From the IMG/VR virus record IMGVR_UViG_3300021962_000021, positions 174,220-238,219 of that record: a stretch of DNA of 64,000 nucleotides, one strand, 5' to 3'. The notes under the pieces are model-generated. The model saw only the letters and a list, made by a program, of their open reading frames with translations, searched no databases and was not told the DNA's origin. This document shows positions 15,792 to 24,935 of this stretch, piece after piece. A program made the position numbers and the translations under genes. The stretch comes from a virus. The first letter of the stretch is position 1; each line of letters opens with the position of its first letter.

Positions 15792-17528
15792 ATGGCAGAT
15801 AAATCAATATTTGGTAGGTTACAAAAATTATTTTCAACAAATACCATAATTCGTAAAACACCTGATGGGGTGAAAGTTGTTGATACAGATGAGTATCAAT
15901 CAATGACCACTAACCTCGTTGACCGTTTTATGAAATTAAAGGTAAGTAATTATGCAGGTGGAGTAGAATCGGGATTAGCATATCAACAAGTTCGTATTGA
16001 CCTTTTTAGGGATTACGATTCAATGGATATGGACCCAATTATTTCATCAGCATTGAATGTATATGCGGATGAGTGCACTGCCAGAAATGAATTTGGAAAT
16101 GTTCTTAAAATTCATCACGAAGATGATAACATAAAGCAAATATTAGAAAATCTTTTTTATGATATTCTAAATATAGAACATACCTTATGGATGTGGACAA
16201 GAAATTTAGTTAAATATGGTGATTTCTATTTACAATTAGAAATGGCCGAAGGATTGGGTATTGTAAATGCACTTCCAATGTCTACTTACGAAATGAGTAG
16301 AATTGAAGGTTTCGATCCTGAAAATCCTCAAAGAGTTAAATTTGTATACGCCCCATACCAAAATCCATATAATGCGGTAGGACAAACTGCAAAGAAAGAA
16401 TACGAAAACTATGAAATAGCACACTTTAGATTAAATGGTGATGCAAACTTTTTACCTTACGGAAAATCTATGATTGAAGGTGGTAGAAGAGTTTGGAAAC
16501 AATTATCTTTAATGGAAGATGCTATGTTAATTCATAGAGTAATGAGAGCTCCTGAAAAAAGAATTTTTAAAGTTGATGTTGGTAATATTCCACCAAACGA
16601 AGTGGATAACTATATGCAAAAAATTATCAACGCATCTAAAAAAGTTCCATTTTTGGATGAAAGAACAGGAGAATATAACTTAAAATATAATATCCAAAAC
16701 TTAATCGAAGATTATTATATGCCAGTTCGTGGTAGTGATAATGGAACATCAATAGATACTTTGAAAGGGTTGGAATATAATATGACAGACGATATTAATT
16801 ATCTAAAAGGAAAATTATTAGCCGCATTACAAATTCCAAAGGCTTTCTTAGGATACGAAGAAGATACAAATGGTAAAGCAACTTTGGCCGGCATGGATGT
16901 TCGTTTTGCAAAAACAATTGAAAGAATACAAAGAGTTATTGTTTCGGAATTGACAAAGATTGCAATTGTTCACTTATATGCACAGGGTATAGATGATGAG
17001 AGATTGACAAACTTCAGTTTAGAATTAACCATTCCATCTAAAATATATGAACAAGAAAAAGTTGAGTTATACACTTCAAAAGTAGCATTAATTACTCAAA
17101 TGCAACAAACAAAAATGGTTTCTAAAAAGTGGATGTATGAAACTATTTTAGGAATGGCAAAAGATGAACAAGATGAACAAACTTTAGCTGTATTAGAAGA
17201 TACTAAACAGGCATTTCGTTTAACTTCAATTGAATCACAAGGTGTTGACCCTGCTAAAGAAACTGGTACTGATGGACCAACAAATGTAGAAGAAGAATTA
17301 AATAAATTAAAATCAGAATTAGAGGAAGATGGTGTTGGTAGACCAAAAGACCCTGTTAGATATGGACATGATGACCATCCAGAGGGAAGAGACCCGTTGG
17401 GAATAAAAACTTTAAAAACAAAAGAAGGCTCTGTAAAATACAAACCAAGAAATTCATATTTAGAGATATTTAAAGATATGAATGGTAATAAAAAGACTAT
17501 TTTGACAGAGAATTTGGATAAAAAGTAA
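15792..17528 (+). CDS. 20: Portal vertex protein gp20
   Basis: A 578-aa protein forming the dodecameric DNA channel at the unique head vertex. The diagnostic C-terminal half has YNMTDDINYLKGKLLAALQ, then IPKAFLGYEEDTNGKATLA and RFAKTIERIQRVIVSEL, the conserved gp20 block. The N-terminal part has PIISSALNVYADECTARNE, typical of this portal family. Length is close to T4 gp20 (524 aa). It starts the head module behind its own promoter. The 3' end is Lys/Asp-rich. Confidence 0.95.
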   Translation: MADKSIFGRLQKLFSTNTIIRKTPDGVKVVDTDEYQSMTTNLVDRFMKLKVSNYAGGVESGLAYQQVRIDLFRDYDSMDMDPIISSALNVYADECTARNEFGNVLKIHHEDDNIKQILENLFYDILNIEHTLWMWTRNLVKYGDFYLQLEMAEGLGIVNALPMSTYEMSRIEGFDPENPQRVKFVYAPYQNPYNAVGQTAKKEYENYEIAHFRLNGDANFLPYGKSMIEGGRRVWKQLSLMEDAMLIHRVMRAPEKRIFKVDVGNIPPNEVDNYMQKIINASKKVPFLDERTGEYNLKYNIQNLIEDYYMPVRGSDNGTSIDTLKGLEYNMTDDINYLKGKLLAALQIPKAFLGYEEDTNGKATLAGMDVRFAKTIERIQRVIVSELTKIAIVHLYAQGIDDERLTNFSLELTIPSKIYEQEKVELYTSKVALITQMQQTKMVSKKWMYETILGMAKDEQDEQTLAVLEDTKQAFRLTSIESQGVDPAKETGTDGPTNVEEELNKLKSELEEDGVGRPKDPVRYGHDDHPEGRDPLGIKTLKTKEGSVKYKPRNSYLEIFKDMNGNKKTILTENLDKK

Positions 17529-19321: not shown

Positions 19322-19627
19322 ATGAATATAAATCAATTAAAAGAACTTATTAAGCAAGTTGTTAAAGAAGAAAGTGATTACCAACAATTGTTCAAACATA
19401 TGTTGGATAAAACTGGTAAATCTATTCCTGATATGAGTGATGCAGAAAAAGTTAAATTTTTCCAAGCTGTTGATAAAGCAGCAAAAGCAAAATCAGAAGG
19501 TAGATTGACAGGTTTGCCTGAAGAATTGAGTGACAAGCAAAAGCAAATTGATGTTGATAAAGATGGAGAAATAGAAGGTTCGGATTTAGCAGCATTAAGA
19601 GCAAAGAACGAAGAAAAAAAAAAGTAA
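19322..19627 (+). CDS. Small head-module protein with EF-hand-like loop; possible -1 frameshift donor
   Basis: A 101-aa protein. It opens with an amphipathic helix (NINQLKELIKQVVKEE) resembling phage capsid-targeting peptides. A SDAEKVKFFQAVDKA block follows, then DVDKDGEIEGSDL, which fits a calcium-binding EF-hand loop (D-x-D-x-D-G). It ends in a Lys run encoded by ten A residues directly before TAA. The tract contains A AAA AAG in the correct phase for a -1 shift into the next open frame. Head-module protein of unknown function. Confidence 0.65.
   Translation: MNINQLKELIKQVVKEESDYQQLFKHMLDKTGKSIPDMSDAEKVKFFQAVDKAAKAKSEGRLTGLPEELSDKQKQIDVDKDGEIEGSDLAALRAKNEEKKK
19618..19624 (+). promoter_or_regulatory. 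Putative -1 frameshift slippery heptamer A AAA AAG
   Basis: A ten-A run (19614-19623) plus G gives A AAA AAG with codons AAA and AAG in the zero frame, exactly the dnaX-type slippery site. The zero-frame stop TAA (19625-19627) follows immediately. A -1 slip enters the frame that stays open to 20034 and would yield a 237-aa fusion. No clear 3' stimulatory hairpin was found by eye. Transcriptional slippage or a missing A in the assembly would have the same effect. Confidence 0.5.
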
Positions 19628-19641
19628 ATGAGAACCTTGCT

Positions 19642-20034
19642 TTGGGTATTATAACTACTTTGAGTAGTATAATCATAGGTAAGGTTATATTTTATTATCT
19701 TTATGATTTGACAAAAAAGGGAATAAATTATTTCTCTGGAAAGAAAAATTATAAAGAAGCGGTTAAGAAAATTTTAGATTCAATGTCAAACAACAAAAGT
19801 TTGATATCAGATATATCTAAAATGATAGAAATGAACGGTGAGATTGATAATACAACTGCTAATAAAATTATAAATTTACCATATGTTAGAACACAAATAA
19901 TAAAAATGAGTGATTCTACAAATGGTGAATTAACCGAAACCGAATTAGAAAACGAATTAAAAACAATTCTAATTAAATCGTGGAGTGATTTGGGAAACAA
20001 AGCAGTAGATAAAATAAAAAAAGATTTGAAATAA
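19642..20034 (+). CDS. Membrane-associated head-region ORF lacking its own ATG (likely -1 frameshift extension)
   Basis: The frame is open from at least 19624 and has no ATG near its start; the first in-frame candidate is TTG at 19642. From 19624 it reads VNENLALGIITTLSSIIIGK, then VIFYYLYDLTKKG, a hydrophobic probable membrane helix, then a charged helical tail of about 100 residues. The previous gene could feed into it by a -1 slip at 19618-19624. The stop touches the gp21 start (TAAATG). Function unknown. Confidence 0.55.
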   Translation: MGIITTLSSIIIGKVIFYYLYDLTKKGINYFSGKKNYKEAVKKILDSMSNNKSLISDISKMIEMNGEIDNTTANKIINLPYVRTQIIKMSDSTNGELTETELENELKTILIKSWSDLGNKAVDKIKKDLK

Positions 20035-20625
20035 ATGAATAAGGGATTATTAATAGAAACACACTTATTTGAAGCAAAAATTGTTCAAGAAGAAAATGGA
20101 ACTTATTTAGTTCAAGGTATTCTTCAAAGAGCTGGTGCACCAAATCAAAACCACAGAAGATATCCAAAAGAAATCTTAATGAGAGAGTGTCAAAAATATG
20201 AACAACTCATTAAAGAAAGAAGAGCATTGGGTGAGTTAGACCATCCGGATTCTCCTGTAATCAACCTTAAAAATGTATCACATAACATCAGAGAAATTTG
20301 GTGGGATGGTGATGATGTGATGGGTAAAGTGGAAATTCTTTCAACTCCTTCTGGTAATATTTTAAGAGAATTATTAAAAAACAATATTCGTTTGGGTATA
20401 TCTTCAAGAGGTTTAGGTTCTGTTAAAGAATTGAAAGATGGAACTGTAATGGTTCAGGAAGACTTTGAATTAGTTGGTTGGGATTTTGTTTCTAACCCAT
20501 CTACACATGGAGCATTTATGGCACCAATCAATGAATCCAAACAATGGAAACAAATGGCAGAAGAATGTGGTAAGTGGTGTAAAGCACAAGATTTAATGAG
20601 AGAAATTATAATTGAATTAAATTAA
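20035..20625 (+). CDS. 21: Prohead maturation protease gp21
   Basis: A 196-aa serine protease (U9/herpes-assemblin-like) that cleaves scaffold, capsid and internal proteins after LxE-type sites during head maturation. Visible blocks are RRYPKEIL, GELDHP (His70), GISSRGLGS (Ser123/Ser124) and ELVGWDFVSNPSTHGAFM. Length is close to T4 gp21 (212 aa). Its likely targets are encoded on both sides: gp22 and gp23 downstream, and several helical or modular proteins upstream. Confident call. Confidence 0.92.
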   Translation: MNKGLLIETHLFEAKIVQEENGTYLVQGILQRAGAPNQNHRRYPKEILMRECQKYEQLIKERRALGELDHPDSPVINLKNVSHNIREIWWDGDDVMGKVEILSTPSGNILRELLKNNIRLGISSRGLGSVKELKDGTVMVQEDFELVGWDFVSNPSTHGAFMAPINESKQWKQMAEECGKWCKAQDLMREIIIELN

Positions 20626-21689: not shown

Positions 21690-21869
21690 ATGTTGATTGT
21701 AAGTGTAAAAGGTGGTAACATAGAAGGTGCATTAAAAGAATATAAAAAGAAAGTTCAATCCGTAAAACAAATTGAACAATTAAGAGAAAGAAAAAATTAC
21801 ACCAAACCATCTGTAAAAAATAGGTTACAAAAAGAAGAAGCTAAAAGGAAAAATAAATTATTTTTTTAA
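21690..21869 (+). CDS. rpsU: Ribosomal protein bS21 homologue (phage-encoded)
   Basis: A 59-aa protein, ATG 21690 to TAA 21867-21869. It reads MLIVSVKGGNIEGALKEYKK and then IEQLRERKNYTKPSVKNRL, matching the bS21 pattern (short strand, ALKxYKKK helix, LRxRxxxxKPSVxxR) and closest to Bacteroidota bS21 from memory. bS21 binds the 30S platform next to the 3' end of 16S rRNA and affects mRNA selection. Aligned without gaps on KPSV, the position of the conserved Bacteroidia Tyr (Tyr54 in Flavobacterium) is Arg53 here. It sits directly upstream of the gp22-gp23 leader and has no Shine-Dalgarno itself. Confidence 0.85.
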   Translation: MLIVSVKGGNIEGALKEYKKKVQSVKQIEQLRERKNYTKPSVKNRLQKEEAKRKNKLFF

Positions 21870-23318: not shown

Positions 23319-24935
23319 ATGGATTTAAAACAAATTATGTCAGGCAAAAACCCACAAAACGTAATGCTTGAGCAAACTAGAGGTTTGAAAGCAAAGTGGG
23401 AAAAAACCGGCTTATTAGAAGGAGTAGGTTCTGAAACTTCTAAGCACGGTATGGCTGTAATGCTTGAAAACCAAGCAAAGCAATTACTTGATGAAGCTAC
23501 TAGAACTGGTACTTCAGCAGGTTCAGAAGAGTGGGCAGGTGTAGCTCTTCCATTGGTAAGAAGAATCTTCGGTAGCATCGCTGCAAAAGAATTCGTTTCT
23601 GTTCAACCAATGAACTTACCTTCAGGTCTTATTTTCTATATGGATTTCAAATACGGTACAGCTACATCGGTAGGTAGACCAGCTTCTGGTTCTTCTATGT
23701 TCGGTAACGGTGGTACATTCGGTAAAGATTCTTTATCTCCAGCAGGTAACAAATTGGGTTCTACTCAAACTACTGAAGGCGGTCTTTACGGAGCAGGTAG
23801 ATTTGGATATACAATCAACGATGTAACTTCTGACGCTTTAACAGCAACAGTAACTACAGCTTCTTGGGCTGATGTTAATTTCGATGCTGATTACTCAGCT
23901 TCAGCAGCTGCAGGTGTTATCAGAAAAGTAAAAATTGGTTTACCATCTGATGCTGATTTCAACGCAGTAAGAGCTTTCTCTTTAACTGGTTCAGTTGACC
24001 AATTACCACAATTTACTTCAATTGATTCTTTAGGTTCTGCATCTTTCTTCGTATCAGCTTCTGTAGCAACAGTAGTACATGGTGCAGGTGGATACGGTAA
24101 TCCAAAAGTAAACTATTCTAAGCAACCAACTGATATCACAAGAGGTGATTTCGAAGATAGAGGTTCTGATTTAGCGATTCCTGAAATCGAATTAGAATTG
24201 AAGTCTGAACCAATCGTTGCTAAGACTAGAAAGTTAAAAGCAATCTGGACTCCAGAATTGGCACAAGACTTAAACGCTTACCATTCAGTAGATGCTGAAG
24301 CTGAATTAACTCAAATGTTATCTGAGTATATTTCTTTGGAAATCGACTTAGAAATCTTAGAGATGTTACAGCAAAACGCATTCACAACTGATTATTGGTC
24401 AGCAAGAGTTGGATACGATTACAATGCAGCAGCAGGTGCATTCCAAATCGACTCTAACGCAGCAGCAGCTTCTGCTTACACAAAGAGCACTTGGTATCAA
24501 ACTTTAGGTATTAAATTACAAAAAGTTTCTAACAAGATTCACCAATTAACTATGAGAGGTGGTGCAAACTTCTTAGTTGTATCTCCAAACGTAGCTACAA
24601 TTTTAGAATCTATGAACGGATTCTCTGCAAACCCAGGTAAAGATGCTTTACAATTTGCAGCAGGTGTTACTAATATCGGTTCAATCTCTAACAGATATGA
24701 TGTTTACAAAAACCCATACATGACTGAGAATGTAATCTTATTAGGTTTCAAAGGTTCTAACTTCTTCGAAACAGGTGCTGTATACGCTCCATATGTTCCG
24801 TTGATTATGACTCCATTGGTTTATGACCCAACTAACTTCACTCCAAGAAGAGGTGTTATGACTAGATACGCTAAGAAAATCGTAAGACCAGAGTTCTACG
24901 GTAAGATTGTCGTTGATGGTTTAAACACTTTATAA
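23319..24935 (+). CDS. 23: Major capsid protein gp23
   Basis: A 538-aa T4-type (HK97-fold) capsid subunit. It has LEQTRGLKAKWEKTGLLEG at the N-terminus. LLDEATRTG contains LDE59 followed by Ala, the expected gp21 cleavage point (T4 cuts gp23 after residue 65). Further blocks are EWAGVALPLVRRIFG, ELKSEPIVAKTRKLKAIWT, ELAQDLNAYHSVDAEAEL and a C-terminal RYAKKIVRPEFYGKIVVDGL. Length matches T4 gp23 (521 aa). There is no Shine-Dalgarno; the leader is A/T-rich. A strong terminator follows. Confidence 0.97.
   Translation: MDLKQIMSGKNPQNVMLEQTRGLKAKWEKTGLLEGVGSETSKHGMAVMLENQAKQLLDEATRTGTSAGSEEWAGVALPLVRRIFGSIAAKEFVSVQPMNLPSGLIFYMDFKYGTATSVGRPASGSSMFGNGGTFGKDSLSPAGNKLGSTQTTEGGLYGAGRFGYTINDVTSDALTATVTTASWADVNFDADYSASAAAGVIRKVKIGLPSDADFNAVRAFSLTGSVDQLPQFTSIDSLGSASFFVSASVATVVHGAGGYGNPKVNYSKQPTDITRGDFEDRGSDLAIPEIELELKSEPIVAKTRKLKAIWTPELAQDLNAYHSVDAEAELTQMLSEYISLEIDLEILEMLQQNAFTTDYWSARVGYDYNAAAGAFQIDSNAAAASAYTKSTWYQTLGIKLQKVSNKIHQLTMRGGANFLVVSPNVATILESMNGFSANPGKDALQFAAGVTNIGSISNRYDVYKNPYMTENVILLGFKGSNFFETGAVYAPYVPLIMTPLVYDPTNFTPRRGVMTRYAKKIVRPEFYGKIVVDGLNTL

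Follow-up and report, generated by a model that had tools for sequence, protein, structure and literature searches.

Probable -1 programmed frameshifting at a conserved A-run in the head-assembly operon of T4-like phages

Results

The window, a 64,000-nucleotide stretch of an IMG/VR virus record (IMGVR_UViG_3300021962_000021, positions 174,220 to 238,219), carries on its plus strand the genes for a T4-like portal protein (gp20, 15792-17528), which marks the head module, a gp21-like prohead serine protease of the Peptidase_S77 family (20035-20625), and a T4-like major capsid protein (gp23, 23319-24935). The junction described here is located in this gp20-gp21-gp23 module, between the portal and protease genes and ahead of gp23. 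Judged by the major capsid protein, the nearest isolates are Microcystis phage Mel-JY01 (55%) and Flavobacterium phage immuto (51%). By eye, Shine-Dalgarno sequence is scarce in the window genes, as would fit a Bacteroidota host. Further along the operon, a 59-aa plus-strand ORF (21690-21869) resembles short proteins encoded at the corresponding position of related phages (L182:5282-5470, L057:6230-6406, and L192:7185-7412 of Mel-JY01), which match Pfam Ribosomal_S21 well above the cut-off. This ORF is a candidate phage-encoded bS21 in the head operon, and could alter translation in the infected cell.

At the junction, a frame-0 gene (19322-19627, plus strand) encodes a 101-aa protein with a leader-like N-terminus (MNINQLKELIKQVVKEE, 19322-19372, plus strand), helices, and an EF-hand-like DVDKDGEIEGSD loop, ending in EEKKK before the stop. 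Sequence inspection shows that its 3' end reads AAG AAC GAA GAA AAA AAA AAG TAA, comprising an A10 run (19614-19623, plus strand) and the in-phase slippery heptamer A_AAA_AAG (19618-19624, plus strand), followed at once by TAA (19625-19627). The -1 frame (19624-20034, plus strand) opens with the codons GTA AAT GAG AAC CTT and runs for 136 codons to its own TAA (20032-20034), directly after which the protease gene starts; its product is hereafter called the VNEN protein. By frameshift, the two frames would give a fusion of 101 + 136 = 237 aa. The first mechanical start in the -1 frame is a TTG at 19642 that is not conserved in relatives. An earlier sequence-only reading of this DNA had claimed an A10-G run with A AAA AAG in phase right before TAA, a -1 frame open for 136 codons to 20034, a 237-aa fusion, and no ATG at the start of the downstream frame, and all of these features are found as it described them.

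A pattern search on both strands of the 238,219-base record returned a single A10, the junction run itself. In the window genes, one A run of at least ten is seen against 6.1 expected from synonymous-codon shuffling, and one of at least nine against about 10.7 expected. The A10 at the junction is not due to chance.

The leader-like N-terminus, a putative capsid-targeting sequence with the pattern MKxxxLKELIRQVVKEE, is common to every upstream partner. The DxDxDG loop is almost invariant among homologues of the upstream protein, which lends weak support to the "EF-hand-like" label of the earlier reading, but the Pfam EF-hand and dockerin scores fall below cut-off. The predicted fold of this protein is of low confidence (pLDDT 72, pTM 0.42).

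In the downstream protein, a 19-residue hydrophobic stretch (LALGIITTLSSIIIGKVIF, 19636-19692, plus strand; mean hydropathy 2.08) bears out the hydrophobic start and the "membrane-type" label that had been given to this frame. It forms the first part of a long N-terminal helix in the AlphaFold2 model, which is all-helical, with a first helix of 34 residues (3-36, pLDDT 89). A structure search with this model gave no match among solved structures, and one uncharacterised phage protein in BFVD (204 aa, TM 0.84, 35% identity). The downstream protein has no match among phage isolates, and the head modules and whole records of Microcystis phage Mel-JY01, Flavobacterium phage immuto, and LR756508 contain no VNEN homologue. 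A scan of cellular genomes for hosts found no relative. A second genome place resembling the junction (L111) was rejected as an unrelated gene.

Selection on the -1 frame was evident in its dN/dS: comparisons of the window with its closest relatives gave 0.14-0.25, and the median of 686 pairs was 0.33; these values point to a gene under purifying selection. Within the first 20 codons of this frame, 31 of 40 relatives lack an ATG, and 14 of the 40 lack GTG and TTG as well, and no conserved start codon of any kind was found in the frame among the 40. Residues are conserved from the codon that adjoins the run onwards, and all 41 of 41 family members, distant paralogues included, carry E3. To judge from these patterns, the -1 frame gene is reachable only through a frameshift. 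Its first residues form a VNE/N motif (19624-19635, plus strand), for which we propose a prohead-protease cut after the E, whose codon ends at 19632. In the 41 family members, the P3 residue of the motif is V (29), L (8), or I (4), with E in all 41, and the variants VNE, INE, LNE, and LEE lie directly before the hydrophobic helix.

Relatives of the upstream protein in IMG/VR number 279 in all, from which 80 loci were taken; relatives of the downstream protein were found at 29 IMG/VR loci, and 80 by alignment search, on partly shared contigs. The run is kept as A9-A12 across 46 distinct shifting junctions (A10 in 30, A11 in 14, and A12 and A9 in 1 each). A comparison of homologues had been proposed in the earlier reading, and in it 35 of these 46 junctions have exactly AAAAAAG as the last seven bases, the others including AAAAAGG (7), AAAAAAA (2), and AAAAAAC (1). 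Differences between A10, A11, and A12 are edge substitutions and not length changes, so the -1 offset is preserved, and it is present in 45 of the 46 junctions. The sole exception is L123 (= L092; L123:2739-3008), where a 46-nt deletion in the upstream gene results in a +1 relation between the frames. This junction could represent a broken allele or a chimera of the assembly, or else its use would require the loss of an A.

Of the 80 upstream loci, all those where a VNEN gene comes next carry the run, and those directly before the protease gene have no long run and end in RKKD, RNKK, or similar. At locus L013, the upstream protein is 97% identical to that of the window, and there is neither a downstream gene nor a run. 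At L127, L049, L188, and L158, the upstream C-terminus differs, yet still ends at the run. The run thus travels with the downstream gene.

The downstream protein also occurs in a single frame. At L181-L184, L186, and L187, it starts at an ATG of its own that overlaps the upstream stop, with the leader-like beginning MIKLKS[IL]LIEVMKKKSVNEN; this single-frame sister group (L181-L187) also retains A10, placed directly after an ATG, and L188, a sister phage of the group, has the shifted form. Paralogues with their own ATG elsewhere in the same operon start METKEKINESS, MANKQQLNEFSL, and MSQKEPLNELGL, and some operon paralogues carry a full leader, for example MQKLSDLVNEKYK...KLEENLL. Own-start or leader-bearing paralogues in the head operon are located at L057:5573-6010, L060:7337-7774, L188:4918-5355, L029:6024-6518, and L009:5977-6459, and some of them sit shortly after a 144- to 211-aa gene with a leader-like start. 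The VNEN family, by these comparisons, includes free proteins as well as frameshift products, and close relatives appear to reach the same end through a start codon and leader of the downstream protein's own. An independent ATG for the second frame in relatives, which the sequence-only reading had named as evidence against its claim, is found in one sister group and in paralogues, but it supplies no start for the window gene.

A predicted stimulatory mRNA hairpin (19633-19686, plus strand) follows the slip site, with a core stem of 19633-19642 paired with 19677-19686 and inner stems between. The 8-nt spacer (19625-19632) fits the spacing of 5-8 nt stated for bacterial stimulators (PMC4066793). 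We judged the hairpin by pair counting and by single-sequence codon shuffles. In the window, its energy is -19.7 kcal/mol, and codon shuffles that preserve the protein give -8.7 (z -4.8). Over 30 lineages, the mean codon-shuffle z is -3.36, with 80% below -2, whereas the best other window of the gene has -2.14; under dinucleotide shuffles, local hairpins show in other windows of the gene too.

The hairpin pairs hold in 78.9% of cells, compared with 36-53% when one arm is slid, and double-change cells number 45 vs. 26.4 in shuffles (0 of 500 shuffles reach 45), covariation counts that relatedness among the sequences inflates. One covarying pair links Leu5 (CTN/TTR) with Lys20 (AAG/AAA), with changes synonymous on both sides (C-G 16, U-A 9); placed on a tree built from the remainder of the gene, it shows four inferred double changes and five breaks. 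We regard the covariation as modest but real. Over 30 rows, RNAalifold gave only a weak consensus; run window by window on the codon alignment, it returned zero energies throughout and was uninformative. L185, L188, and L049 have a weak hairpin or none, and part of the hairpin persists in two single-frame relatives, L182 and L187, at a codon-shuffle z of about -2.1.

Discussion

The head-assembly operon of this T4-like phage probably contains a -1 programmed frameshift, located at the junction, and the fusion may have a role in targeting and be cleaved. The device itself appears to be a standard dnaX/IS-type -1 frameshift, in a new gene family. Escherichia coli dnaX and IS911/IS3 likewise combine an in-phase A_AAA_AAG with a stem-loop a few nucleotides downstream (PMC4066793; PMC3711429). 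Unlike in dnaX and IS911/IS3, the run at the window junction is longer (A10-A12), the stop comes directly after the heptamer, there is no clear Shine-Dalgarno-like stimulator, and the site lies in a phage head gene, where the frameshift adds a long C-terminal extension and does not yield a shorter product.

The sequence-only reading had offered three explanations: programmed frameshifting, transcriptional slippage, and a homopolymer assembly error. Homopolymers are generally error-prone, but an assembly error is excluded because 46 distinct junctions from many samples show nearly all the same -1 offset; the offset recurs in dozens of contigs with edges that differ by substitution, and purifying selection on the downstream frame also stands against error or a decaying gene, the chance of which we regard as negligible. 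The downstream gene might instead be translated on its own, either from a non-AUG codon or through reinitiation past the TAA, the A-run serving as a Bacteroidota-type initiation enhancer. The paralogues and the L181-L187 group with their own ATG, and the A10 directly after the ATG in that group, are what one would cite for such a mechanism, yet no start codon of any kind is conserved in the -1 frame, conservation begins at the codon adjoining the run, and the in-phase heptamer, the hairpin, and its spacing are left unexplained, making it very improbable.

Programmed transcriptional slippage, in which the polymerase would stutter on A10-A12 and some mRNAs would gain one A and encode the fusion, has more to be said for it, although we think it unlikely. 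With at least ten A residues in 45 of 46 junctions, the run exceeds what ribosomal slippage needs, the heptamer requiring just six A residues and one further base, and A runs of at least nine are otherwise almost absent from the window genes. A stem abutting the 5' side of the run is a layout known to promote transcriptional slippage, and L132 and L172 have such a stem flush with the run (L132:2930-3000, L172:2930-3000; GAGCC/GGGCUC and GAGCUC/GAGCUC), in a terminator-like layout that may favour slippage; across lineages, however, such a stem is not a conserved feature (mean z about -1.0). Transcriptional realignment is described for An with n > 7, dnaX of Thermus and others having A9-A10 (PMC3711429). 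Thermus dnaX (A9) and Shigella spa13 and mxiE likewise have a homopolymer at the junction and make two proteins (PMC3711429; PMC5009743), but unlike these cases of slippage, the window junction has a conserved downstream hairpin, which points to the ribosome. This hairpin is missing in some lineages, as slippage would allow, but it is the best-conserved RNA feature and is still untranscribed as the polymerase crosses the run. Because such a hairpin can act on the ribosome and not on the polymerase passing the run, -1 ribosomal frameshifting is preferred. Slippage is a possible contributor, and both may act.

With ribosomal frameshifting as the mechanism, most ribosomes on the message for the 101-aa core protein would terminate at the TAA after the A-run, and some would pause at the hairpin about 8 nt on, slip back by one base on A_AAA_AAG, and read 136 more codons in the -1 frame, producing the 237-aa fusion. 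The fusion would lend its prohead-targeting leader to the membrane-type helical protein, which could thereby enter the prohead in a fixed minor proportion. The adjoining gp21-like protease would then cut after VNE, freeing the hydrophobic helical domain inside the head, where it might be a membrane anchor for prohead initiation or, equally possibly, an ejected protein.

This scheme draws on T4, whose internal head proteins are directed to the prohead core by a leader roughly 10 residues long, which gp21 cleaves off after L/I-X-E, and whose heads are assembled on the inner membrane (PMC9026906; PMC9958956). The window shares with the T4 CTS/gp21 system a short N-terminal leader and a Peptidase_S77 next door, and its [VIL]xE motif resembles L/I-X-E (PMC9026906). 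Unlike in T4, the leader would reach its cargo by frameshift, and P3 of the putative cut motif is mostly V. By analogy, we infer that the upstream N-terminus is a capsid-targeting leader like the T4 CTS, and that the neighbouring prohead protease would cut the fusion after its [VIL]xE. A membrane-type core protein is plausible because T4 heads form on the inner membrane. That the frameshift is a targeting device, delivering a fixed small dose of the protein to the prohead by way of a leader-bearing neighbour, with release by the protease afterwards, is a more tentative reading, which may well prove wrong.

Structural proteins with frameshifted forms include the major head protein of Lactobacillus phage A2, capsid protein 10B of T3/T7, those of the Listeria phages A118, A500, and PSA, and lambda gpG-GT (PMC5009743). 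In these phages, likewise, frameshifting adds a C-terminal extension to a minor fraction of a structural protein (PMC5009743); unlike in them, the protein in the window is a small one of the prohead-core type, from a T4-like phage, and what the frameshift would append is a helical membrane-type protein with a separate gene in relatives. We found no report of a frameshift in this part of the T4-like head module in the open-access literature.

Most descriptions of programmed frameshifts in phages concern tail assembly chaperones, or capsid proteins that carry extra domains. The junction described here lies in the prohead-core region of a widespread, uncultured T4-like group, and one internal head protein appears to be made in two forms, one of which has a membrane-type tail piece. 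Gene callers would miss the downstream protein or call a short TTG-started ORF in its place. Natural controls are present in the sequences themselves: the upstream gene with and without its partner, frameshifted and single-frame sisters, and paralogues that begin at a start codon of their own. Should the targeting reading be correct, frameshifting would determine how much of a protein is packaged in the head.
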